Below, one piece after another: positions 49,176 through 59,806 of a DNA stretch of 64,000 nucleotides. Numbering within the stretch: the first letter of the stretch is position 1; each line of letters starts with the position of its first letter. This DNA comes from Cyclobacteriaceae bacterium. GTDB taxonomy: Bacteria > Bacteroidota > Bacteroidia > Cytophagales > Cyclobacteriaceae. The stretch covers positions 62,001 through 126,000 of the forward strand of contig JAPZUF010000002.1 in assembly GCA_027533395.1 (NCBI GenBank), given 5' to 3'. The position numbers and the translations under genes are program-made. The notes beneath the pieces are model-generated. The model saw only the letters and a program-made list of their open reading frames with translations, had not been told where the DNA came from and ran no database searches.

Positions 49176-50321
49176 ATGAAGATATTAGTTTATTTCCTTT
49201 TTATATTATATAGCTCAACGTTATGTTTAGCTCAAAGTTTTTATAATAAAGGAGGGATAGTGTCCATTCAAGCCGGCACTATTTTTACCACAAAGGACAG
49301 TTTGGTCAATACTGGAACTCTTACCAACAATGGCAACATGGTGATGGGTGGTGTTTGGTTTAACCAGGGTAATTATAACCCAGGTAATGGAGAAATTACT
49401 TTCAATAGTATTGCAGGTGCTCCTTCACAAGTAATCAATCATAATAATCAAACTTTTAAAAAGTTAACAATAAGTGGAGGTGGAGAGAAGGTAATGTTAG
49501 CTGATATGACCATCGATGGAGAATTGATTCTGGAAAATGGGATTATTACAGGAGAGAATGATTCCAAAATAAAATTTTCTTCTTCTGCAACTATTTCAGG
49601 TGGAGGAAATAACGCTCATATTAAGGCTCCTGTTGTACATAGTGGAAGCGGACAGAAAGTTTTCCCTATAGGGGATGGAACACAATATCTACCAGTTACC
49701 ATTAGTGATATAAACAATTCAGAGATTGAAATTGCAATGTTGCAAGAACCTTTTAATGCCAATTTTAATTTAGAATTACAAAGTATTGTAAACGACCGCT
49801 ATTGGCAAGTAAATGCTATCTCAGGCTCTCTCTCCAACACATTAATTACATTGCCAGTTTTTCAATTACCGTCACAAATTGACCAGGAGAAATTAGTGGT
49901 TGCTCAATCGGCATCAATAAATGATGAATTCTTCAATCTTGATAAAACAAATTTCAGTGGCTCACTGGCAAATGGTTCAATCTCTGCAAGAATTAACGAA
50001 GCGGATAACGCCATTTTTTCTTTAGCAGTAGCCAGTGAATTATCAGGTGAAGTTTTGGTTTACAATGCGGTTTCAGCGAATGAAGACGGTTTAAATGATT
50101 ACCTAGAAATCGCTAACATTACCAATTATCCTAATAATAAATTACTTGTTTTTAATAGATGGGGCGATGTGGTTTTCGAAATTAACGGGTACAACAACAC
50201 CGATAGAGTTTTTAAAGGTGTTAATAACAGTGGCAGTTTATTGCCTAAAGGAACTTACTTCTATCGTTTAGATTTAGGTGATGGTTCGCTAGTAAAATCA
50301 GGTTATATCTCAGTGAAATAG
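49176..50321 (+). CDS. Surface protein with gliding-motility-type C-terminal domain (T9SS sorting)
   Basis: 381 residues, with signal peptide (LVYFLFILYSSTLCLAQ). A middle region of Gly/Asn/Thr-rich beta strands (NTGTLTNNGNMVMGGVWFN) is followed by a C-terminal type B sorting domain of about 90 residues: YNAVSANEDGLNDYLEIANI, KLLVFNRWGDVVFEINGYNN, then LPKGTYFYRLDLGDG and SGYISVK. This domain is the signal for type IX secretion to the cell surface. The gene starts 6 bases after the adhesin-like gene and ends 2 bases before the PorP/SprF gene. Confidence 0.9.
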   Translation: MKILVYFLFILYSSTLCLAQSFYNKGGIVSIQAGTIFTTKDSLVNTGTLTNNGNMVMGGVWFNQGNYNPGNGEITFNSIAGAPSQVINHNNQTFKKLTISGGGEKVMLADMTIDGELILENGIITGENDSKIKFSSSATISGGGNNAHIKAPVVHSGSGQKVFPIGDGTQYLPVTISDINNSEIEIAMLQEPFNANFNLELQSIVNDRYWQVNAISGSLSNTLITLPVFQLPSQIDQEKLVVAQSASINDEFFNLDKTNFSGSLANGSISARINEADNAIFSLAVASELSGEVLVYNAVSANEDGLNDYLEIANITNYPNNKLLVFNRWGDVVFEINGYNNTDRVFKGVNNSGSLLPKGTYFYRLDLGDGSLVKSGYISVK

Positions 50322-50323
50322 CC

Positions 50324-51226
50324 ATGAAGAAAATTTTAACCTTAAGTTTTTTATTGCTTTTTGGCAAAACAACTTTTGCTCAGCAAGATCCTTTGTATAG
50401 TTTATACATTACTAATCCGATCACTATTAATCCAGCCTATACTGGTATCAATGATCGTTTTACAGGTTATGTAAATTCAAGATTACAATGGGCTGGTTTC
50501 GATGGTAATCCTAAAACTCACGCATTTGGTGCCCATACTTCAATTAGAAACAACAGAATGGGTTTGGGTGTACAGTTTGTACAGGATAACATTGGTGAGA
50601 ATAGTAATACAGCTTTTGGTATGTCTTATGCATATAGATTACCGTTAGGTGAAGGTTCATTAGCTTTTGGTATGCAAGCTGGAATGATTAACTATAAAAA
50701 TGATAACAGCGAATTGCGCATCAGGCAGCCTAACGATCCTCTGTTTAATAACTTTAGCGAGATGAAGTTTAACGCAGGCGCTGGTTTTATGTTCAAAAGC
50801 GAAAGAATGTTAATAGGTATATCTGTACCACGTTTAATCAATAACGCAGTGAGCATTGGTGGACAAGATATTTCTGTTTATGAACAACACTATTATCTTT
50901 TCGCTTCTCGTTTGTTTTATATTAATGAACATGTTTCTTTAAAGCCTTCTGTATTAATTAAAGCCGTGAAGAATTCTCCTATATCTACAGATGTAAATGT
51001 TAACTTTCTTTTCAATCAAAAGTTTACGGCTGGGCTTTTTACCAGAAACCTGAATGCATATGGTTTACTCGCACAAGTTGACTTTCTTGAATCTTATCGA
51101 TTGGCTTACATCTTCGAAATTCCTTCTGGTAATACTTTAGAAAGCCGTTTTACGACTCATGAACTCATGCTAAGCATCAATTTGGCACTTTTCGATTTTC
51201 ATGATAAGAGTATGTCTAATTTTTAA
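50324..51226 (+). CDS. Type IX secretion system membrane protein, PorP/SprF family
   Basis: 300 residues, an outer-membrane beta barrel. The signal peptide is LTLSFLLLFGKTTFAQQ. DPLYSLYITNPITINPAYTGIND and SRLQWAGFDGNPKTHAFGAHTSIRNNRMGLG match the PorP/SprF family. These proteins help deliver or anchor particular T9SS cargo, usually the one encoded next to them. Here the neighbour is the type B sorted protein 2 bases upstream. Confidence 0.93.
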   Translation: MKKILTLSFLLLFGKTTFAQQDPLYSLYITNPITINPAYTGINDRFTGYVNSRLQWAGFDGNPKTHAFGAHTSIRNNRMGLGVQFVQDNIGENSNTAFGMSYAYRLPLGEGSLAFGMQAGMINYKNDNSELRIRQPNDPLFNNFSEMKFNAGAGFMFKSERMLIGISVPRLINNAVSIGGQDISVYEQHYYLFASRLFYINEHVSLKPSVLIKAVKNSPISTDVNVNFLFNQKFTAGLFTRNLNAYGLLAQVDFLESYRLAYIFEIPSGNTLESRFTTHELMLSINLALFDFHDKSMSNF

Positions 51227-51396: not shown

Positions 51397-52242
51397 ATGG
51401 AAACTGTAACCACCTCCGAGCAATTGAAACAATTAGTGAAAGAAAAATACAGCCAGATTGCTGAGCAAAGCAAAGATCAAAATGAATCAAGTTGCTGTGG
51501 AGCTACCTGCGGTTGCGCTACAATTGATTACACCATCATGGCCGATGATTATACATCATTACAAGGCTATAACAAAGATGCAGACTTAGGTTTAGGTTGT
51601 GGTTTACCTACAGAGCATGCATTAATCAAAGAAGGAGACATCGTGGTCGATCTTGGTTCTGGTGCAGGCAACGATGCTTTTGTAGCTCGCTCTATAGTAG
51701 GAGAGAAAGGAAAGGTTATCGGTGTTGATTTTACAGAAAAGATGATTGAGAAGGCACGTATCAATGCTGAAAAACTAAATTATCATAACGTAGAATTCAG
51801 ATTAGGTGATATTGAGAAAATGCCTTTGAGTGCTAACGTTGCAGATGTAGTTGTAAGCAATTGTGTGCTTAACTTAGTTCCTAATAAAGAAAAGGCTTTC
51901 GCAGAAACATTTCGCATTTTAAAACCGGGTGGTCACTTCAGCGTTTCCGATATTGTTTTATCAGGTAATCTTCCTTTAGGTTTGCAACAAAGCGCAGAAA
52001 TGTACGCAGGTTGTGTGTCTGGCGCTATTCAGAAAAACGATTACCTATCAATTATAAAAGAAACAGGATTTATAAACATTAAAATTCAAAAGGAGAAAAG
52101 AATTGTTTTACCAGATGAGATTCTCACTCAATATCTATCTGAAAATGATATCGAAGAATTTAAAAATGGTAATGCAGGAATTTTTAGTGTTACAGTATAT
52201 GCAGAGAAACCAAAAGATTGTTCTCAACCAGGTTGTTGCTAA
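51397..52242 (+). CDS. arsM: Arsenite S-adenosylmethionine methyltransferase
   Basis: 281 residues. Methylates As(III) to volatile or less toxic methylarsenicals. The SAM site is VVDLGSGAGNDAFVARS. The conserved cysteines are in LGCGLP, SNCVLNLVP and YAGCVSGAIQ. There is also a Cys-rich N-terminal stretch (SSCCGATCGCA) and a C-terminal pair (PGCC) typical of the bacterial enzyme. First gene of the operon arsM-arsC-acr3, with the arsC ATG 36 bases after its stop. Confidence 0.93.
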   Translation: METVTTSEQLKQLVKEKYSQIAEQSKDQNESSCCGATCGCATIDYTIMADDYTSLQGYNKDADLGLGCGLPTEHALIKEGDIVVDLGSGAGNDAFVARSIVGEKGKVIGVDFTEKMIEKARINAEKLNYHNVEFRLGDIEKMPLSANVADVVVSNCVLNLVPNKEKAFAETFRILKPGGHFSVSDIVLSGNLPLGLQQSAEMYAGCVSGAIQKNDYLSIIKETGFINIKIQKEKRIVLPDEILTQYLSENDIEEFKNGNAGIFSVTVYAEKPKDCSQPGCC

Positions 52243-52277
52243 TCAATATTTATCAACTTATTATTCTTAAACAGTAT

Positions 52278-52907
52278 ATGCATAATTTACTTTTACCGAG
52301 TTTGCAAAAAAAAGTAGAACAACTTGTTCAACAATTTGATGCGATTGATGAAGAACGTCATCAACCTTTATTAAGTATGACGAATTACATCCAATCTAAG
52401 ATCAATAAGCAGCAAGCTATTCAATTGAATTTTATCTGCACACACAATTCCAGAAGAAGTCATATATCGCAATTGTGGGCACAAGCAGCTGCCCACTATT
52501 ATCAAATTCCGAATGTGTTTTGTTTTTCGGGCGGAACAGAAGCAACATCGTTTAACCCACGTGCTGTGTTGGCTATGCAAAATGCAGGTTTTGCTATTGA
52601 AGCATCAAATAAAACAAACAATCCTATTTATGATGTAAAATTTGCCAACGATGCCATGGCATTGCAAGTTTTTTCTAAAAAGTACGATGATGCCGTTAAT
52701 CCAGTCAACTCTTTTGCTGCTGTAATGACGTGCTCACATGCTGATGAAAATTGTCCGTTTATACCAGGAGCTGAAAAAAGATTCGCATTGACTTATGATG
52801 ATCCAAAAGCTTTTGATGATACGTCATTAGAAAAGGAAAAATACAAAGAAAGAGTAGAGCAAATCGGTAGAGAAATACTTTTCATATTTTCTAACATCAA
52901 AAAATAA
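52278..52907 (+). CDS. arsC: Arsenate reductase, low-molecular-weight phosphatase family
   Basis: 209 residues from the ATG at 52278 (the ORF begins earlier, within arsM). The phosphate loop Cx5R is CTHNSRR. The Asp-containing [20 protein letters not shown] and [21 protein letters not shown] are typical of the Bacteroidota thioredoxin-type arsenate reductases. It would reduce arsenate to arsenite for export. The stop codon overlaps the start of acr3 by 1 base, giving translational coupling. Confidence 0.87.
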
Positions 52908-53959
52908 TGCAACCATCACCTAAACTTTCATTCGTAGATAGATACTTAACTCTTTGGATATTCCTTGCCATGTTACTTGGCATAGCTATCGGTAATTTGT
53001 TGGAAGTAGAAAAAGTTTTGTCTGTATTTCAAGTTGGAACAACCAATTTACTTATTGCTGTAGGATTAATTGTGATGATGTATCCACCGCTAGCAAAGGT
53101 TAAATATGAACAATTGAATAAAGTATTTAAGAATATAAAACTAATAGGTTTGTCGTTGATTCTAAATTGGATCATCGGTCCGATTTTAATGTTTGTGTTA
53201 GCCATTTTGTTTTTGCAAGATCAACCTGCCTATATGGTAGGTTTGATTTTGATTGGTTTAGCAAGATGCATTGCGATGGTTTTAGTTTGGAACGACTTAG
53301 CCAACGGTGATAAAGAGTATGCAGCTGGTTTGGTTGCGTTGAATAGTATTTTTCAATTATTGTTTTATAGTTTATTTGCTTGGCTATTTATAACTGTATT
53401 ACCACCCTATTTTGGTTTGCCATCCTTCGACATACATGTAAGCATGATGGATGTAGCGCAAAGTGTTTTGGTATATCTGGGAATTCCTTTTTTGGCAGGA
53501 TATGCATCGCGTAAATTTTTGTTAAATAGAAATGGAGAGCAATGGTACAAGGAAAAGTATATACCAAAAGTTAGTCCATTTACATTATACGCTTTGTTGT
53601 TTACCATTGTAGTAATGTTTAGTTTAAAAGGAAAGGAAATAGTTAGCATTCCATTAGATATAGTGCGCATAGCCATTCCATTGGTGTTGTATTTTGTGCT
53701 GATGTTCCTCTTTAGTTTTTTTCTTTCTAAAAAACTGGGTGCTGGATATGCAGAAAACACAGCAGTTTCATTTACAGCAACCGGTAATAATTTTGAATTA
53801 GCGATTGCGGTAGCAGTAGGTGTTTTTGGAATTAATTCTGGTCAGGCTTTTGCTGGAGTTATAGGTCCGTTGATTGAAGTGCCAGCTTTAATATTGATGG
53901 TTCGTTTAGCATTTTTATTAAAGAAGAAATTGTATTCATCTTCTATAGAAAGCAAATAG
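52907..53959 (+). CDS. acr3: ACR3-type arsenite efflux permease
   Basis: 350 residues with about 10 membrane segments. Family blocks: [62 protein letters not shown] in outline, which holds the conserved Cys in ARCIAMV, and [25 protein letters not shown]. It exports arsenite using the membrane potential. Last gene of the operon. No arsR, arsA or arsD follows. Confidence 0.94.
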
Positions 53960-53998: not shown

Positions 53999-54982
53999 CT
54001 ACTCAGAAACAATTTTCTGAATTTCTTTAATGATTAAATCTAAATCGTCTAATTCTTGTTGAATCATTAAATTAAGTTGATGTTGTTCCTCAGGTTTTGA
54101 GATAGATTTTAATTGAAACAATCCTTTTATCCTACAATAAGGAGCACGCAACTTATGCGCATTATAAAAAGCGTATTCTGTTAAACGTTCATTTTTTTGT
54201 GCTAACTCTTGTGTTCTTTTCTGTATAATCGTTTCCAAGTTATGATTGAGAGATTTTACTTCATCGTTCAGCTTGGTTAATGCGTTATTACTTTGCACTA
54301 ATTCTTCATTGATAGCAGTAACTTCTTCTTTTTGTTCTTGTATTACTCTATTGGCTTGTGATAATTCTGAAAATAGATTTTCTACTGACTGCATCAACAA
54401 GAAAATCAACAAAGAAAATAGTAAGTAATACAGAATGACAACTAGAAAGAAATATTTGTTATTCACCACGCTCAATAGTTCAGTAGATATTTCATCATCT
54501 TGACTAATTAAAAATTGGATAGAAGTTAATACAAGAATAAAATTGAAAAGAAATAAAGTCCAGAAATACGCAGGTTCAGTTCTTCTGGAGAACATCAGGT
54601 GAATTAGCAAGGCATGAAAAATCAAACCAACCGGATAAGCCAAATAATAATCAGGTGGTGTCTGCTGATACCAAATCGGAATAATATGCATCAGCAAGGG
54701 CCAAGTGATAATGAATATCAATCTTCCAATTCTTGATTTACCTTTTTTATTGAGATAAAGAGCCAAGAAGCAGATTGCAATTTCAAAAAGGAAAATGAAT
54801 TGATCCCATTTTAATTCTTGAATAGGTCTTAAGTATGCTTCAATATCAATGATTACAAATAATGTATAAACAAACGGCAGCGTTATGTAAATGATATTAG
54901 TGTAGATAAGTCTTCTATTAAAACTATCATTATAGCTGGCTTGCGTGCCTTGGTGAATTAGAGGTTGTAGAAAGGTAACCAT
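53999..54982 (-). CDS. Membrane kinase-like protein with DHp-like helix but no ATPase domain
   Basis: 327 residues from the ATG at 54982. About six to seven membrane helices come first (IIYITLPFVYTLFVII, FLFEIAICFLALYL, and others). A long coiled coil follows (VIQEQKEEVTAINEELVQSN, LNHNLETIIQKRTQELAQ). The last 60 residues match the phospho-acceptor part of histidine kinases (LTEYAFYNAHKLRAPYCRI), with a His at the expected place. The gene then ends at a stop codon, with no N, G1 or G2 box. Either it is a naturally ATPase-less adaptor, as found elsewhere in Bacteroidota, or it is a truncated kinase. Upstream in-frame residues to 55090 look non-coding. Confidence 0.75.
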   Translation of the reverse strand: MVTFLQPLIHQGTQASYNDSFNRRLIYTNIIYITLPFVYTLFVIIDIEAYLRPIQELKWDQFIFLFEIAICFLALYLNKKGKSRIGRLIFIITWPLLMHIIPIWYQQTPPDYYLAYPVGLIFHALLIHLMFSRRTEPAYFWTLFLFNFILVLTSIQFLISQDDEISTELLSVVNNKYFFLVVILYYLLFSLLIFLLMQSVENLFSELSQANRVIQEQKEEVTAINEELVQSNNALTKLNDEVKSLNHNLETIIQKRTQELAQKNERLTEYAFYNAHKLRAPYCRIKGLFQLKSISKPEEQHQLNLMIQQELDDLDLIIKEIQKIVSE

Positions 54983-55199
54983 AGAAACTTCTTTGGTTAA
55001 GGATTGGATAAAAGAACTATAGCATAATTTAGGTAAAAAAGTTGAATTGTATTTTAGAATCCAAGACTTGTCAGACAAACAATTAATCAAACATGTATAT
55101 TCTTATTATATAAAATTGATTAAAAAAGATTATCCATTAAATATTTTTTCGATTTTTACAATCTAATCTGTCTCTTAGTATAAACTTAATACAGGCAAA

Positions 55200-58196
55200 A
55201 TGCGCTTCCTTCTACTTTTATGCTTCGTGTTTGTAAGTATAGTCTTACCAGCACAAACAATACCCCAACATCCTAATAAAACAGAAAATGGATTGCGCCA
55301 AGGTAATTGGGCGATTTGGTATGATAAAGATTGGAATGAAACAAAGAATAAGGATAGTGTTGCCTTTTACCGATTAATAGAATACAAAGATGATATTCCC
55401 GTTGGCTTAACAAGCGATTACTACAGCAATGGTAAACTTCAAATGCAGGGTAAATTACTGGCAGAAAAACCGAAAGAAATTTGGGATGGTAAAGTCACCT
55501 ATTACTTTCCTAGTGGTAATAAGGAAAAAGAAGAATACTATGAAAAGGGTAAACTTCAAGCTGATGCACTACTTTTTAAGGAAGATGGAACAATAGATAG
55601 TATAGCGCTAGCAGACTATTTTTACAATAATAGTTTTTATGAAAGGGCTGAGCCATTATTACTTCATAATAAAAAATCTATAGAGAAAACGGTTGGCAAG
55701 TGGAACCGCGATTATGCCCTAGCCTGCACGAAGCTCGGTTTTTTGTATAGAACAATAGTACTATTTTCAAAAGCAGAGCTGTATTACTTAGAGGCTCGGG
55801 AAGTTTATGAAAGAATAAGTGGAAAAGAAAGCATAGAATATGCTCGTGCAAATGGAAATTTAGGAGAATTATACTACACACAAGGCTATTATTCAAAAGC
55901 TGAACCCTTACAAGTAAATTCAAAAAATACATTTGAGAAAATACATGGTAAATTTTCATCTCCTTATGCAAACGCATGTGTTAATATGGGCAATTTATTT
56001 GCACGTTTAGGCCGTTTTACCGAAGCTGAAAATTTGCTGATTGAAGCAAAAGAGATTCAAGAGAAAATTGCTAGTAAAAATAGTTATGGGTATGCTCGTG
56101 CATGTAGTAATCTCGCTGTTTTATACAGCACTTACAAATTTTATCTGAAAGCATTGCCTTTGTATGAAGAAGCCAAAGCAATTAGGCAAATGCTAGAGCC
56201 ATACAGCTTAGAATACATTAATACTTGCATGAGTTTAGGTATTACTTACATGTATCTGCAACGTTATGATGATGCTGAAAAATTATTGATAGAAGCGCTA
56301 AACTTAACAAAGCAAGTAGTTGGCGAAAAACACCTAACTTTTGCTATTGCCTGTAATAACCTTAGTGCATTTTATAACAATTGTAAATTGTATAAAAAAG
56401 CAGAGCTTTTGCAAATTGATGCGAATAAAGTAATTGAGCAGGTTTTGGGTACTCAGCATTTTAGTTATGCCAATGGATGTAACAACTTGGCAGAAATTTA
56501 TATTAACCAAAAAAAATACGACAAAGCTGAATCGTTTTTATTGAAAGCCTATCAAACTTACTATTCAATAATAGAAAATCAACTTTCATACATGTCTGAG
56601 AGGGAGAAAGAAGCTTTTCTAAATACATTTAAACAAGAGTTCGAAGCATTTAATTCATTTGTTCTATTACGCCAAAAAGATAATCCTGCAGTCGTTGGGA
56701 ACATGTACAATAATTTATTGGCTACGAAAGCACTTCTGTTTAATACCCAAAATGCAATGCGAAAACACATAATAGGGAGCGGGAAGATGGAGTTAATAGC
56801 ATTGTTAAATGATTGGCAGGAAAAAAGAGAGAATTTGGCAAAGGCTTTTAAAATGTCGATAAGTGAAAGAGAAAAAAGAAAAATTAACCTTCAGGAATCA
56901 GAAAAAGAAATCAATTTAATTGAAAAGCAACTGTCGCAACAGACAGCCGTTTTTTCCAGATCGCGCACCAATAGCGTTACTTGGCAGGATGTACAAAAAA
57001 CAATAAAGCCAAAACAAGCAGCGATAGAAATGGTGAGGTTTAGGTATCATAACAAGAAATTTACTGATACAATTTATTATGCAGCACTAATCATCACACC
57101 AACAAGTAAGCAACCCGAATTGGTTGTATTAAACAACGGTAATGAACTTGAAAAAGCAATCAAGTACTATAAAAACAATATCAAGTTCGAAATTGAAGAT
57201 AAAACAAGTTATAACTTATTTTGGCGTTCAATTAGTGAGCGACTAAATAAGGTGGCGCCAAAAACAAAGAAGATTTATTTTTCTGCAGATGGTGTTTATC
57301 ATGCTCTTAACTTACAAACTTTACTTAACCCTCAATCAGGTAAATATGTAGCTGATGAATACGAGATACAGCTCTTAACAAACACAAAAGATTTAATTGG
57401 TGCGATTCAAAAAATAGACTCGAGAAATGAGGCTTTTCTTTTTGGTTATCCTGATTATACAAATACAATTAATGAAAACAACATTCCAGATTCAAACATC
57501 CTAAATTATGATTTAGATAGCTTGAAAAGAGAGTTTGTAAGGGGTCGCATTTCCATGTTACCAGGAACAGAAAAGGAAGTTAAAGGACTCTTTAATACGT
57601 TAGCAAAACAAAACTGGAAGACCGAGACGTTTATATTGGGTCAAGCAACTGAATCGAAATTAAAAGACTTACGAAGCCCAAAGGTTTTACACATAGCAAC
57701 ACATGGATTTTTTATGCAAGACGTAAATGTTAAGGATAATTCGAAAGGTTTTATAGGAATAGACAATCAAAAGATATTTGAAAATCCATTGTTGCGATCG
57801 GGGTTATTGCTCGCAGGCTCGCAGCAGTCCTTAGATGGTAAAAACAACTTTGATGAAGAGGATGGAATTTTAACCGCATACGAAGCGATGAACCTGGATT
57901 TAAGTAATACAGATTTAGTTGTTTTGTCTGCCTGTGAAACAGGTTTAGGAGAGATAAAAAATGGAGAAGGTGTATTTGGTTTACAAAGAGCATTTCAAAC
58001 AGCGGGCGCAAAAAGTATTATTATGAGTCTCTGGAAAGTGAATGATACAAGTACACAAGAATTGATGCAGCTATTCTACAACAATTGGTTATCATCTGGA
58101 GATAAAAGGAAGGCATTTATTCAAGCACAAGATTCTATGAGACGAAAATACAAGCATCCTTTTTTTTGGGGAGCTTTCGTCTTGGTTGGTGAATGA
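55200..58196 (+). CDS. Secreted YwqK/MORN-like, TPR and CHAT-protease protein
   Basis: 998 residues. Signal peptide (LLLLCFVFVSIVLPAQ). Residues about 25-130 hold YwqK/MORN-like repeats (GLRQGNWAIWYDKDW, YYSNGKLQMQGKLL, YYFPSGNKEKEEYYEKG). Seven or eight TPR_12-like units follow (pattern YARACSNLAVLY, YANGCNNLAEIYINQ), with a coiled-coil linker to about residue 600. The last 350 residues are a CHAT domain with the catalytic His near 835 (LHIATHGFF) and Cys near 912 (VLSACETGLGEIKNGEG), both intact. CHAT proteases cut partner proteins when the TPR part is engaged. The signal peptide makes this one periplasmic or surface-exposed, so its targets are unknown. Confidence 0.85.
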   Translation: MRFLLLLCFVFVSIVLPAQTIPQHPNKTENGLRQGNWAIWYDKDWNETKNKDSVAFYRLIEYKDDIPVGLTSDYYSNGKLQMQGKLLAEKPKEIWDGKVTYYFPSGNKEKEEYYEKGKLQADALLFKEDGTIDSIALADYFYNNSFYERAEPLLLHNKKSIEKTVGKWNRDYALACTKLGFLYRTIVLFSKAELYYLEAREVYERISGKESIEYARANGNLGELYYTQGYYSKAEPLQVNSKNTFEKIHGKFSSPYANACVNMGNLFARLGRFTEAENLLIEAKEIQEKIASKNSYGYARACSNLAVLYSTYKFYLKALPLYEEAKAIRQMLEPYSLEYINTCMSLGITYMYLQRYDDAEKLLIEALNLTKQVVGEKHLTFAIACNNLSAFYNNCKLYKKAELLQIDANKVIEQVLGTQHFSYANGCNNLAEIYINQKKYDKAESFLLKAYQTYYSIIENQLSYMSEREKEAFLNTFKQEFEAFNSFVLLRQKDNPAVVGNMYNNLLATKALLFNTQNAMRKHIIGSGKMELIALLNDWQEKRENLAKAFKMSISEREKRKINLQESEKEINLIEKQLSQQTAVFSRSRTNSVTWQDVQKTIKPKQAAIEMVRFRYHNKKFTDTIYYAALIITPTSKQPELVVLNNGNELEKAIKYYKNNIKFEIEDKTSYNLFWRSISERLNKVAPKTKKIYFSADGVYHALNLQTLLNPQSGKYVADEYEIQLLTNTKDLIGAIQKIDSRNEAFLFGYPDYTNTINENNIPDSNILNYDLDSLKREFVRGRISMLPGTEKEVKGLFNTLAKQNWKTETFILGQATESKLKDLRSPKVLHIATHGFFMQDVNVKDNSKGFIGIDNQKIFENPLLRSGLLLAGSQQSLDGKNNFDEEDGILTAYEAMNLDLSNTDLVVLSACETGLGEIKNGEGVFGLQRAFQTAGAKSIIMSLWKVNDTSTQELMQLFYNNWLSSGDKRKAFIQAQDSMRRKYKHPFFWGAFVLVGE

Positions 58197-58478
58197 AATG
58201 AAAAAACTGTTGACTTGTTCTAAGAAAAATTTAGGTTCTTTATGATGCTATTCTTACTGCAATAACTAAGAAGGCAAGTTGTAGCCAAATGCAAACTAAA
58301 ATTCGATTTATTTCAGTGGTTAGTTGTTTTTAAAATTTGTAGCCAATCGAAAGCATCCAAATTACTTTTTAGCCATTCAATTTTTAGAATGGTTTTCTAT
58401 ACTCAATCATAGTAAAATATTGAATTTTTAACTTGAAAATTGATAAATAAAAAAGCCTAACTAGAAGGTTAGGCTTTG
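58197..58478. other. Intergenic stretch before tRNA-Lys
   Basis: About 280 bases of AT-rich sequence with no ORF of note. The only structure is the terminator at 58452-58477. Two short copies of TTGTAGCCAA-like sequence occur near 58280 and 58340, too short to interpret. Confidence 0.5.
58452..58477 (-). terminator. Terminator of tRNA-Lys
   Basis: AAAGCCTAAC (58452-58461) pairs with GTTAGGCTTT (58468-58477), a perfect 10-bp stem. On the minus strand a T-run follows. It starts directly after the tRNA 3' end. Confidence 0.85.
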
Positions 58479-58551
58479 TGATCCCGCTGGGATTCGAACC
58501 CAGGACCCTTACATTAAAAGTGTAATGCTCTACCAACTGAGCTACGAGATC
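58479..58551 (-). tRNA. tRNA-Lys (anticodon UUU)
   Basis: Reads on the minus strand from GATCTCG to CGGGATC plus one discriminator base A; the acceptor stem pairs over 7 bp with one G-U. GCTCAGTTGGTAGAGC forms the D arm, the anticodon loop is CTTTTAA with anticodon TTT, and GGGTTCGAATCCC forms the T arm. The 73-nt gene has no encoded CCA. A terminator follows at once. Confidence 0.95.
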
Positions 58552-58640
58552 TTCCGTCAATCACCTAAAGCTTTAAAACATTGTCAATTTCGCCAGCTTT
58601 TCCGTAATTGAGGGCACAAAGGTAATAGGATAAAAAATAT

Positions 58641-59369
58641 ATGCAAAAAGCAGTCAAAAAAAATATAGTTTTCTTTTTCATACTTTTATCCGCATGGTCA
58701 GTTTATGGGCAAAATGCTCAACTAACTTTAAAAAAGGCTGACTCTCTTTTTTCTGCCAAACGGTATTCGCAAGCCATCAAGGTCTATGAATCTTTGCTTC
58801 AAAGTAAACAGATGAGTCCTTCGATGTTATTGAAAATGGCCTACATCTACGAGGCTAATAATGATTATACCCAAGCTCAATATTGTTTAACACATTATAC
58901 TCGATTAACAAACGATTTAACTGCATTGGATAAACAGAATAGTCTTGCTAAGAAGTATGGGTTAAAAGGTTACGATAATCCTGAAGAAGTGCAAATTTGG
59001 TTTTCTGTTTTGCCTTATATCCCATACATCGTTTTGTTAATTTTGTTGACGGCAGCAATTCTGGTTTTTGTTCAGTTTTGGTTCTCAAAACAGAATGTAA
59101 AGCGACTTGTATTTCCAATTCTTACAACTGTTTTCCTTTTGTTTGCGGTTTTCCTTCAAACAATATTTCAGCAGCCAAAATTTGGCATTGTTTCAGCAGA
59201 TAAAACGTATGCCATGTCAGGACCATCAGCGGCTGCTAACGTAAGCCAAATCATTCGAAAAGGAAGTCGTGTCGAAATTATGGATTACACCGATGTTTGG
59301 GTTAAAGTGAAGTTAAATGAAGATGTATATTTTGTAAGACAAGACGATTTGCTAACCATTGCACCTTAA
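58641..59369 (+). CDS. Membrane protein with TPR and SH3-like domains (BatE-like)
   Basis: 242 residues. Signal sequence (FFILLSAWSVYGQ), two or three TPR units (SAKRYSQAIKVYESLLQS, MLLKMAYIYEANNDYTQAQY), two membrane helices (VLPYIPYIVLLILLTAAILVF, VFPILTTVFLLFAVFLQ), then an SH3-like C-terminal domain (VEIMDYTDVWVKVKLNEDVY). This order matches the BatE-type proteins of Bacteroidota aerotolerance loci, but no batA-D genes are nearby, so the name is only a resemblance. ruvX starts 17 bases later. Confidence 0.75.
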   Translation: MQKAVKKNIVFFFILLSAWSVYGQNAQLTLKKADSLFSAKRYSQAIKVYESLLQSKQMSPSMLLKMAYIYEANNDYTQAQYCLTHYTRLTNDLTALDKQNSLAKKYGLKGYDNPEEVQIWFSVLPYIPYIVLLILLTAAILVFVQFWFSKQNVKRLVFPILTTVFLLFAVFLQTIFQQPKFGIVSADKTYAMSGPSAAANVSQIIRKGSRVEIMDYTDVWVKVKLNEDVYFVRQDDLLTIAP

Positions 59370-59386
59370 TATCCATACCTTTAAGC

Positions 59387-59806
59387 ATGGCAAGAATAAT
59401 GGCAATTGATTACGGAGTTAAAAGAACGGGTATTGCTGTAACCGATATCAACCAAATAATTGCCACTCCATTAGATACTGTTGCCACGCATCTTTGTTTA
59501 CAGTTTATCGAAAACTATTGTAAAAAAGAACTTGTTGAAACTTTTGTGGTAGGTATGCCTAAAACATTAAACAACGAAGATTCAGAAATTGCACCCTTAG
59601 TAAGAAAGTTTATCGATTCATTACAAAAGAAATTTCCCGATATAAAAATACATACTGCTGATGAACGCTTTACTTCATCTATGGCTAAACAAGCTTTGCT
59701 AGATGGAGGTATGAAAAAGAAAGATCGCCAGCAAAAAGGTAACATCGATAAAGTAAGTGCCACCCTTATTCTGCAAAGTTTTTTAGAAACAAATAGAAAT
59801 TTTTAG
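59387..59806 (+). CDS. ruvX: Holliday-junction-resolvase-like protein RuvX/YqgF
   Basis: 139 residues, complete RNase H-like fold. MAIDYGVKRTGIAVTDINQ holds the first acidic residue. VVGMPKTLNNEDSEIAPLVR and HTADERFTSSMAKQAL contain the conserved Glu/Asp positions, and KVSATLILQSFLE is the C-terminal helix. Its accepted role is in processing 16S rRNA precursor and possibly recombination intermediates. It follows the TPR/SH3 gene closely and may be cotranscribed with it. Confidence 0.95.
   Translation: MARIMAIDYGVKRTGIAVTDINQIIATPLDTVATHLCLQFIENYCKKELVETFVVGMPKTLNNEDSEIAPLVRKFIDSLQKKFPDIKIHTADERFTSSMAKQALLDGGMKKKDRQQKGNIDKVSATLILQSFLETNRNF

Follow-up and report, generated by a model that had tools for sequence, protein, structure and literature searches.

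What might a putative protease of the CHAT family, joined to tetratricopeptide repeats (TPRs) and headed by an export signal, do in the envelope of one of the Bacteroidota? The question is raised by a gene at positions 55200-58196 of a 64,000-nucleotide stretch of a Cyclobacteriaceae genome (the window; GenBank assembly GCA_027533395.1, contig JAPZUF010000002.1, positions 62,001 to 126,000), in which an initial annotation, made from the sequence alone, saw an exported CHAT protease with a YwqK/MORN-like N-terminus, TPRs and an intact His-Cys pair, set apart by its export from the cytosolic CHAT proteases of defence and cell-death systems. Sequence comparisons indicate that the window protein is a member of a widespread exported TPR-CHAT branch with a recurrent extra module. 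Relatives are cited below by our own numbers for loci (L) and genomes (G), and the papers cited by accession are drawn on in excerpt.

Domain anatomy and predicted active site

The open reading frame (ORF) is intact, with an ATG start, no internal stop and a product of 998 amino acids, and its order of signal peptide, MORN_2 module, seven or eight kinesin-light-chain-type TPRs and CHAT domain is confirmed (Table 1). Pfam assigns residues 671-998, the end of the chain, to CHAT (PF12770; E 3.4e-62, 211 bits against a curated cut-off of 24) and recognises TPR_10 (E 2.2e-31) and TPR_12 (E 2.2e-29). The N-terminal module is fainter: a Pfam scan of the whole protein returned no MORN_2 match at E 0.01, and a scan of residues 1-137 alone matched MORN_2 (PF07661) with E 1.1e-6 and 28.6 bits, under the curated cut-off of 29.6. 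The domains first named for this protein are recovered, the YwqK/MORN-like one more weakly than the others. The AlphaFold2 (AF2) model of the whole chain, with a mean predicted local distance difference test score (pLDDT) of 87.0 and a predicted template modelling score (pTM) of 0.78, starts with a helix for the signal and goes on with beta strands as far as residue 124, eight helix pairs of TPR type that end at about residue 464, a helical linker and the CHAT domain; modelled alone, the latter reaches a pLDDT of 85.7 and a pTM of 0.86.

The presumed active site is formed by H835 and C912. When the PDB was searched with a profile of 24 CHAT tails, the sole matches were TPR-CHAT chains of Craspase (five sequences), and these were weak (best E 0.069; 0.17 in a second profile search). 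In this weak alignment the HG and aCeT motifs are in register and H835 and C912 fall on H585 and C627 (numbered by counting along 7x8a_D), which are the catalytic dyad of Craspase TPR-CHAT, C627 mutants being inactive (PMC9729208); the claim of an intact His-Cys pair is borne out to that extent. Both residues are invariant in 40 of 40, 24 of 24 and 80 of 80 aligned relatives, sets drawn with a motif filter (the 80 ORFs have either motif and 79 have both, the one lacking the His motif lying at 11465-14596 of L117). In a filter-free sample, 20 loci chosen from the phylum-wide list of Pfam CHAT matches, 19 loci held 22 CHAT ORFs and the remaining one, L187, none by our own profile; the Cys was kept in all 22 and the His in 18, the other four being alignment gaps.

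Since the sequence match to the PDB is weak, it is the comparison of folds that carries the likeness to Craspase. A VIA search with the CHAT-only model ranked Csx29 first (7y9x_B; Z 25.4, root-mean-square deviation 3.5, 310 residues aligned) and human separase second (9hn5_A, Z 21.6), and also returned DdvA (8rw5, Z 19.2), the gingipains RgpB (4ief_B, Z 17.3) and Kgp (Z 16.0), and caspases (Z about 13), while Foldseek with the whole model again placed Csx29 first (8eey_B, E 1.3e-13). For the TPR part the likeness is to KLC1 and Rap chains, of which several were, judging by entry titles, solved with a bound peptide, which makes a peptide-like ligand plausible. Next to the dyad, loop 913-921 is poorly ordered in both AF2 models, whole and CHAT-only.

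Export signal, location and distribution

The N-terminus, MRFLLLLCFVFVSIVLPA/QTIPQ (the slash marking the predicted cut), has Arg at position 2, a core hydropathy of 3.45 and Gln at +1, the last in agreement with the Q-rule of Bacteroidetes. Signal peptides were judged by two rules of our own, one loose and one strict, rather than by SignalP; the window protein passes the loose rule and fails the strict one because it has Leu at -3, where a small residue or Val is wanted. Strict signals were found in 57 of 80 CHAT ORFs, as against 48 of 273 neighbouring proteins and 1 of 1152 internal Met starts. A simpler measure, a 10-residue mean hydropathy of at least 2.2 within the first 60 residues, was reached by 78 of the 80 and by only 25 of 1413 blocks taken from inside these proteins; in the phylum sample it was reached by 17 of 19 complete ORFs, the others being L173 and L181 (1.67), with three further ORFs, cut by the region end, left outside the count. 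The strong core, Arg2, Gln at +1 and the hydrophobic N-termini of relatives together uphold the proposed export signal, its failure of the strict rule notwithstanding.

As to where an exported product would reside, the initial annotation offered the periplasm or the cell surface. In the window protein we found no lipobox, no second membrane segment (the highest 19-residue hydropathy after the signal is 1.16) and no Pfam match to a C-terminal sorting domain of the type IX secretion system (T9SS). Because the CHAT domain ends the chain, as it does throughout the 80 ORFs, which all stop 4-6 residues past a conserved W-G/A-x-F, and because neither sorting domain nor lipobox is seen, the surface appears less likely, and on these sequence features the periplasm is the likeliest location. 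Elsewhere in the phylum there seems to be an anchored form as well: 7 of the 19 sampled ORFs (L178, L180, L181, L182, L183, L185 and L186) end in a hydrophobic segment (17-residue mean of at least 2.0) and L184 in a weaker one (1.33); among the 80 ORFs of the window's own order the highest such C-terminal value is 1.08.

Proteins of this kind are common. A protein search matched 51 of 59 genomes, the window's own included, some of the matches being to TPRs only, and a single scan of genome contigs for relatives gave one locus, in a Rikenella metagenome-assembled genome. Pfam CHAT genes number four in the genome itself, matches number 4-9 in each of five genomes of the genus (some being two pieces of one gene), and at least one is present in 61 of the 118 genomes sampled from the phylum, again counting its own. 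Given this frequency and the hydrophobic N-termini of relatives, exported CHAT-TPR proteins are ordinary in the order and in the phylum sample, so that export cannot be regarded, as it was at first, as a departure from a cytosolic norm. Less usual than export itself is how few texts on exported TPR-CHAT proteins came to light: open-access searches, which are weak evidence of absence, turned up no paper evidently devoted to those of Bacteroidota.

Modules, paralogue sets and partner genes among relatives

By profile, the MORN_2 module occurs in 16 of the 80 CHAT ORFs (the window protein and 15 others), a count enriched by the way loci were collected, since it was found in 12 of 15 ORFs from loci fetched with the module and in 3 of 64 from loci fetched with CHAT; one of the three ORFs lacking it among the former, at L153, is cut at its start. 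Matches to MORN_2 in module homologues reach E 4.3e-28 (94.5 bits in L052, 75.8 in L059 and 47.5 in L143) and fall under the curated cut-off in L139, L140, L145 and L152; four of eight module pieces scanned gave E 3.7e-4 to 4.4e-3. At L145 (G090) the module is a separate ORF of 181 amino acids with a signal-like N-terminus, read in the same direction as the CHAT gene that follows it after 281 bp. That the module is fused in some genomes and adjacent in another suggests that module and protease may work together. On the CHAT tree the module label, carried by 11 rows and taken from a motif that missed five, changes 5 times, as against 10.5 in shuffles; the position of the window protein itself has no starred support. 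Four CHAT proteins of at least 2000 amino acids (L052, L059, L111 and L156) were seen to carry several N-terminal MORN_2-like repeats.

Many TPR-CHAT paralogues, several of them in tandem, were observed in G037 (L041-L048, L110) and G056 (L039). In 15 fetched paralogues of G037 the TPR parts (293-429 amino acids) share a mean identity of 49% and the CHAT tails (last 230 amino acids) 92%; for five tandem paralogues of G056 the values are 49% and 84%. Over the last 540 codons of the G037 genes the synonymous difference drops from 0.72 to 0.34-0.37, for which selection on the protein is insufficient alone and with which recombination between tails is consistent; in G056 it is 0.56-0.71 and falls in the last block only, to 0.41. 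Five cross-genome pairs display no such drop, four of them being near saturation and L036/L075 (0.44-0.78) serving as the fair control, while for the TPR parts of G037 100 of 105 pairs have reached synonymous saturation, repeat misalignment being possible there. Positive selection was not shown, the TPR parts having median dN/dS values of 0.23 and 0.30. As read from the sequences, divergent TPRs on near-identical CHAT tails would fit diversified sensors set on one effector.

A search for conserved neighbours, one of the checks proposed at the outset, had a divided outcome. In 13 loci of the window's own subgroup no recurrent partner was seen by look. When 366 neighbour proteins from 67 loci were clustered, the largest family was one of PD40-OmpA genes, present at 13 loci and adjacent to the CHAT gene at 12, and nine of these (L051, L054, L056, L063, L065, L067, L072, L115 and L116) make up exactly one CHAT clade, with support 97 (the sister clade). 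In seven of the nine the two genes share a strand and either overlap or lie within 95 bp of each other; in L067 and L072 they are divergent. The other three adjacent cases are L074, L147 and L156, of which the last two (both G179) carry the MORN_2 module. Pfam confirmed PD40 and OmpA in all four neighbours scanned (L051, L056, L063 and L147), and OmpA matches lie within the neighbours of L065, L067, L072, L074, L115 and L116; the OmpA-type gene of L054 is cut by the contig end and the neighbour of L156 was assigned by clustering. Genomes of this set have 16-24 OmpA matches each, from which we estimate a chance adjacency near 1% per locus, the nine loci sharing ancestry. The likeness of these neighbours to PorE/PG1058, as far as excerpts on the latter go, is one of architecture. 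The window CHAT gene has neither an OmpA-type neighbour nor one of the CHASE2 type, a gene of which stands two or three genes away from three other CHAT genes (L061, L062 and L064; Pfam on L061); these three, which encode a 1400-amino-acid type of CHAT protein, also have, within three genes, an uncharacterised protein with a signal-like N-terminus.

The locus and its counterparts in the genus

The gene beside the CHAT gene was described as a divergently transcribed kinase without an ATPase domain and as the sole accessory candidate. The first part is supported, neither Pfam nor NCBIfam finding such a domain in the kinase-like protein; because its homologues in three congeners have 327-329 amino acids (69% identity in G001, 65% in G003, 51% in G002), the gene is not a truncated pseudogene. 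As a partner of the CHAT protein it was rejected: the three congeners keep it with no CHAT ORF, by motif, in the surrounding 8-10 kb, one of them at the same locus. A weak PADLOC match links it to LmuB (E 3e-4). The absence of a dedicated neighbour holds, none having been recognised in the window.

In G001 the order is a PorP/SprF-like gene, the kinase-like gene, tRNA-Lys and next the genes that correspond to those of the window starting at 58641; at the matching place there is neither a CHAT gene nor a counterpart of 51397-53959. BLAST joins the window to G001 at 54000-54969 and 58449-59499 and not across the CHAT gene, the other three matches being of 17-27 bp. Neither G001 nor G004 yielded the module; in G003 a 35% match lies within a different CHAT gene of about 2100 amino acids, and in G002 there are two weak matches in other ORFs. 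Given the absence at the G001 place and this distribution of the module, sequence comparison marks the window CHAT gene as an accessory gene in the genus. Gain is a simpler account than repeated loss, neither being demonstrated. The tRNA-Lys gene adjoins a phage-integrase-type gene in G003 (L106) and G004 (L109); exact insertion ends were not found, and in the window the tRNA stretch has no direct repeats of at least 14 bases. Base composition gives no sign of a foreign origin, the GC content of the gene being 0.343 and the mean of 41 window ORFs 0.369 (standard deviation 0.029). Further upstream, at 49176-51226 on the forward strand, a CHU_C type IX signal protein is followed by PorP/SprF, a pair found in the same order in G001; genes of these two kinds point to Bacteroidota as the source of the window.

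Table 1. Parts of the exported TPR-CHAT gene and features around it (window positions)
Feature	Position	Strand	Basis or remark
Whole gene, exported MORN_2-TPR-CHAT protein, 998 aa	55200..58196	+	ORF list, Pfam
Signal peptide, predicted cut A18/Q19	55200..55253	+	Own rules; AF2 helix 2-14
YwqK-like MORN_2 module, aa 21-120, chiefly beta strands in model	55260..55559	+	Profile, AF2
Kinesin-light-chain-type TPR superhelix, aa 134-464, eight helix pairs in model (first short)	55599..56591	+	Pfam, AF2, structure matches
Helical linker from TPRs to CHAT, aa 467-586	56598..56957	+	AF2
CHAT (separase/caspase-type) domain, aa 593-998 as modelled alone	56976..58193	+	Pfam CHAT = 671-998
Codon of predicted catalytic His835	57702..57704	+	Alignments, PMC9729208 (excerpt)
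Codon of predicted catalytic Cys912; loop 913-921 with pLDDT < 50	57933..57935	+	Alignments, AF2, PMC9729208 (excerpt)
Kinase-like membrane protein, coiled coil	53999-55090	-	Histidine-kinase-like dimerisation part by look and weak NCBIfam match
tRNA-Lys(ttt)	58478-58551	-	Surroundings vary within genus
Methyltransferase; ORF that Pfam leaves unmatched at 1e-4 (looks phosphatase-like); SBF-type transporter (looks arsenic-type)	51397-53959	+	Absent at G001 place

A proposed mechanism and its alternatives

The reading that we favour, with a little more confidence than doubt, is that of a soluble cysteine protease of the separase/Craspase type in the periplasm, latent until switched by a ligand of its MORN_2-TPR sensor. 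The protein would pass through Sec and, soluble in the periplasm, be made latent; the module and the TPR superhelix would together sense, by binding a peptide or an envelope protein; and the effect of the ligand would travel along the helical linker to the loop after C912 and order the active site, by analogy with Craspase, in which target binding moves a linker and exposes the dyad (PMC9729208). The activated CHAT domain would then make one or a few cuts in a substrate of the envelope.

Several observations weigh against this proposal. Query-normalised TM-scores of the whole-chain Foldseek matches are 0.16-0.42 among the 50 matches listed, and VIA with the whole model puts TPR-only chains on top (8jal_A, Z 37.3) and Csx29 24th (Z 26.0). 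In the models, the low pLDDT of loop 913-921 is no proof of latency, loops 757-781 and 844-855 being equally poor. The strict signal rule misses 22 further CHAT ORFs besides the window protein, and the loose one, though it accepts 75 of 80, also accepts 147 of 273 neighbours and is too loose to discriminate. Finally, since the transmembrane anti-sigma factor DdvA matches the CHAT model, the fold need not mean proteolysis.

A wider proposal, which we put forward as speculative and rather improbable, is that exported TPR-CHAT proteins make up an envelope surveillance repertoire, in which divergent TPR/MORN_2 sensors, mounted on one protease tail homogenised by recombination, would answer foreign or self periplasmic ligands with limited proteolysis, the window gene being an accessory receptor and its YwqK-like module an integrated bait. 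Doubtful, too, is an envelope conflict effector, whose TPR/MORN_2 part would recognise a foreign protein (from a phage, a contact-delivered toxin or a rival cell) and whose CHAT domain would damage the envelope or kill the cell. Some relatives do form multigene sets of divergent TPRs on near-constant CHAT tails, the window gene is missing at the G001 place and has for a neighbour a tRNA-Lys next to which two other congeners carry an integrase-type gene, and MORN_2/YwqK proteins are elsewhere annotated as antitoxins. However, the CHAT protein matched no family of PADLOC-DB 2.0.0 at E 0.01, neither a toxin nor a phage gene could be made out by look beside it (gasdermins were not searched for), and two of the three other CHAT genes of the genome have close G001 counterparts and are apparently stably kept.

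We consider decidedly unlikely a housekeeping protease of the space between outer membrane and peptidoglycan, tied to PorE-like OmpA proteins or to type IX secretion. In its favour, all nine members of the sister clade adjoin a gene of the PD40-OmpA cluster, as do three loci outside it, in genomes with the above 16-24 OmpA matches; yet the window gene lies outside that clade and lacks such a neighbour, the nine loci share ancestry, and each genome has several OmpA proteins of this kind. Very unlikely is a protein that senses or acts as a scaffold in the envelope and retains the CHAT fold without proteolysis, as may be true of the matching region of the anti-sigma factor: DdvA structures match the CHAT model with Z about 19 and rank ninth by whole-chain Foldseek, but a dead scaffold would have no need of the conserved His and Cys, and the window protein is without the second membrane segment. 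That the N-terminus is no working signal and the protein a cytosolic TPR-CHAT is scarcely credible, the unusual Leu at -3 being outweighed by the strong core, Arg2, Gln at +1 and hydrophobic N-termini throughout the relatives.

Relation to known systems and significance

Closest in plan is Csx29, the TPR-CHAT protein of type III-E Craspase, which likewise has TPRs followed by a C-terminal CHAT domain with the same His-Cys pair and fold but is complexed with an RNA-guided nuclease and switched by target RNA (PMC9729208); the window protein adds a signal peptide and the MORN_2 module, and among the window ORFs no CRISPR genes were recognised by look, the genome not having been searched for Cas7-11. 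Separase has the same protease fold, but is eukaryotic and is kept inactive by securin (PMC9729208). HetF of Anabaena unites CHAT and TPRs in one membrane-linked putative protease, its CHAT domain, however, being N-terminal (residues 1-555) and accompanied by a membrane segment (PMC8406250), whereas that of the window protein is C-terminal and has no membrane anchor. DdvA offers a matching fold in a membrane protein, a sigma-factor regulator by entry title. The gingipains are exported proteases of Bacteroidota with a caspase-like fold; they are not known to have TPRs and are secreted by the T9SS with a sorting domain. YwqK/MORN_2 repeat proteins share the MORN_2 repeats, which here are fused to TPR-CHAT and once encoded just upstream.

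Also from Bacteroidota are the CHAT proteins of the variable region of the Bacteroides fragilis type VI secretion system, one of them apparently transmembrane; these are proposed immunity proteins beside effectors, and TPRs go unmentioned there, the word tetratricopeptide having 0 occurrences (PMC11854122). Caspase-like domains also mark the prokaryotic metacaspases, some of which have a probable signal peptide or TPRs; these belong to another family, and the word CHAT is absent from the paper on them (PMC3501461), as it is from a further paper (PMC7159879). Elsewhere a CHAT protein is the target of a hypermutated sensor and is predicted to be cytoplasmic (PMC10907252).

In print we came across CHAT proteases that are switches inside the cell or membrane-linked proteins whose role is unclear. 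Should a large exported branch indeed act in the periplasm of Bacteroidota, proteolysis switched by a ligand would take place in a compartment in which literature searches did not show it to have been studied. The OmpA-type neighbours of the sister clade provide a testable partner, and the paralogue sets with their varied TPRs a direct approach to the question of what these proteins sense.

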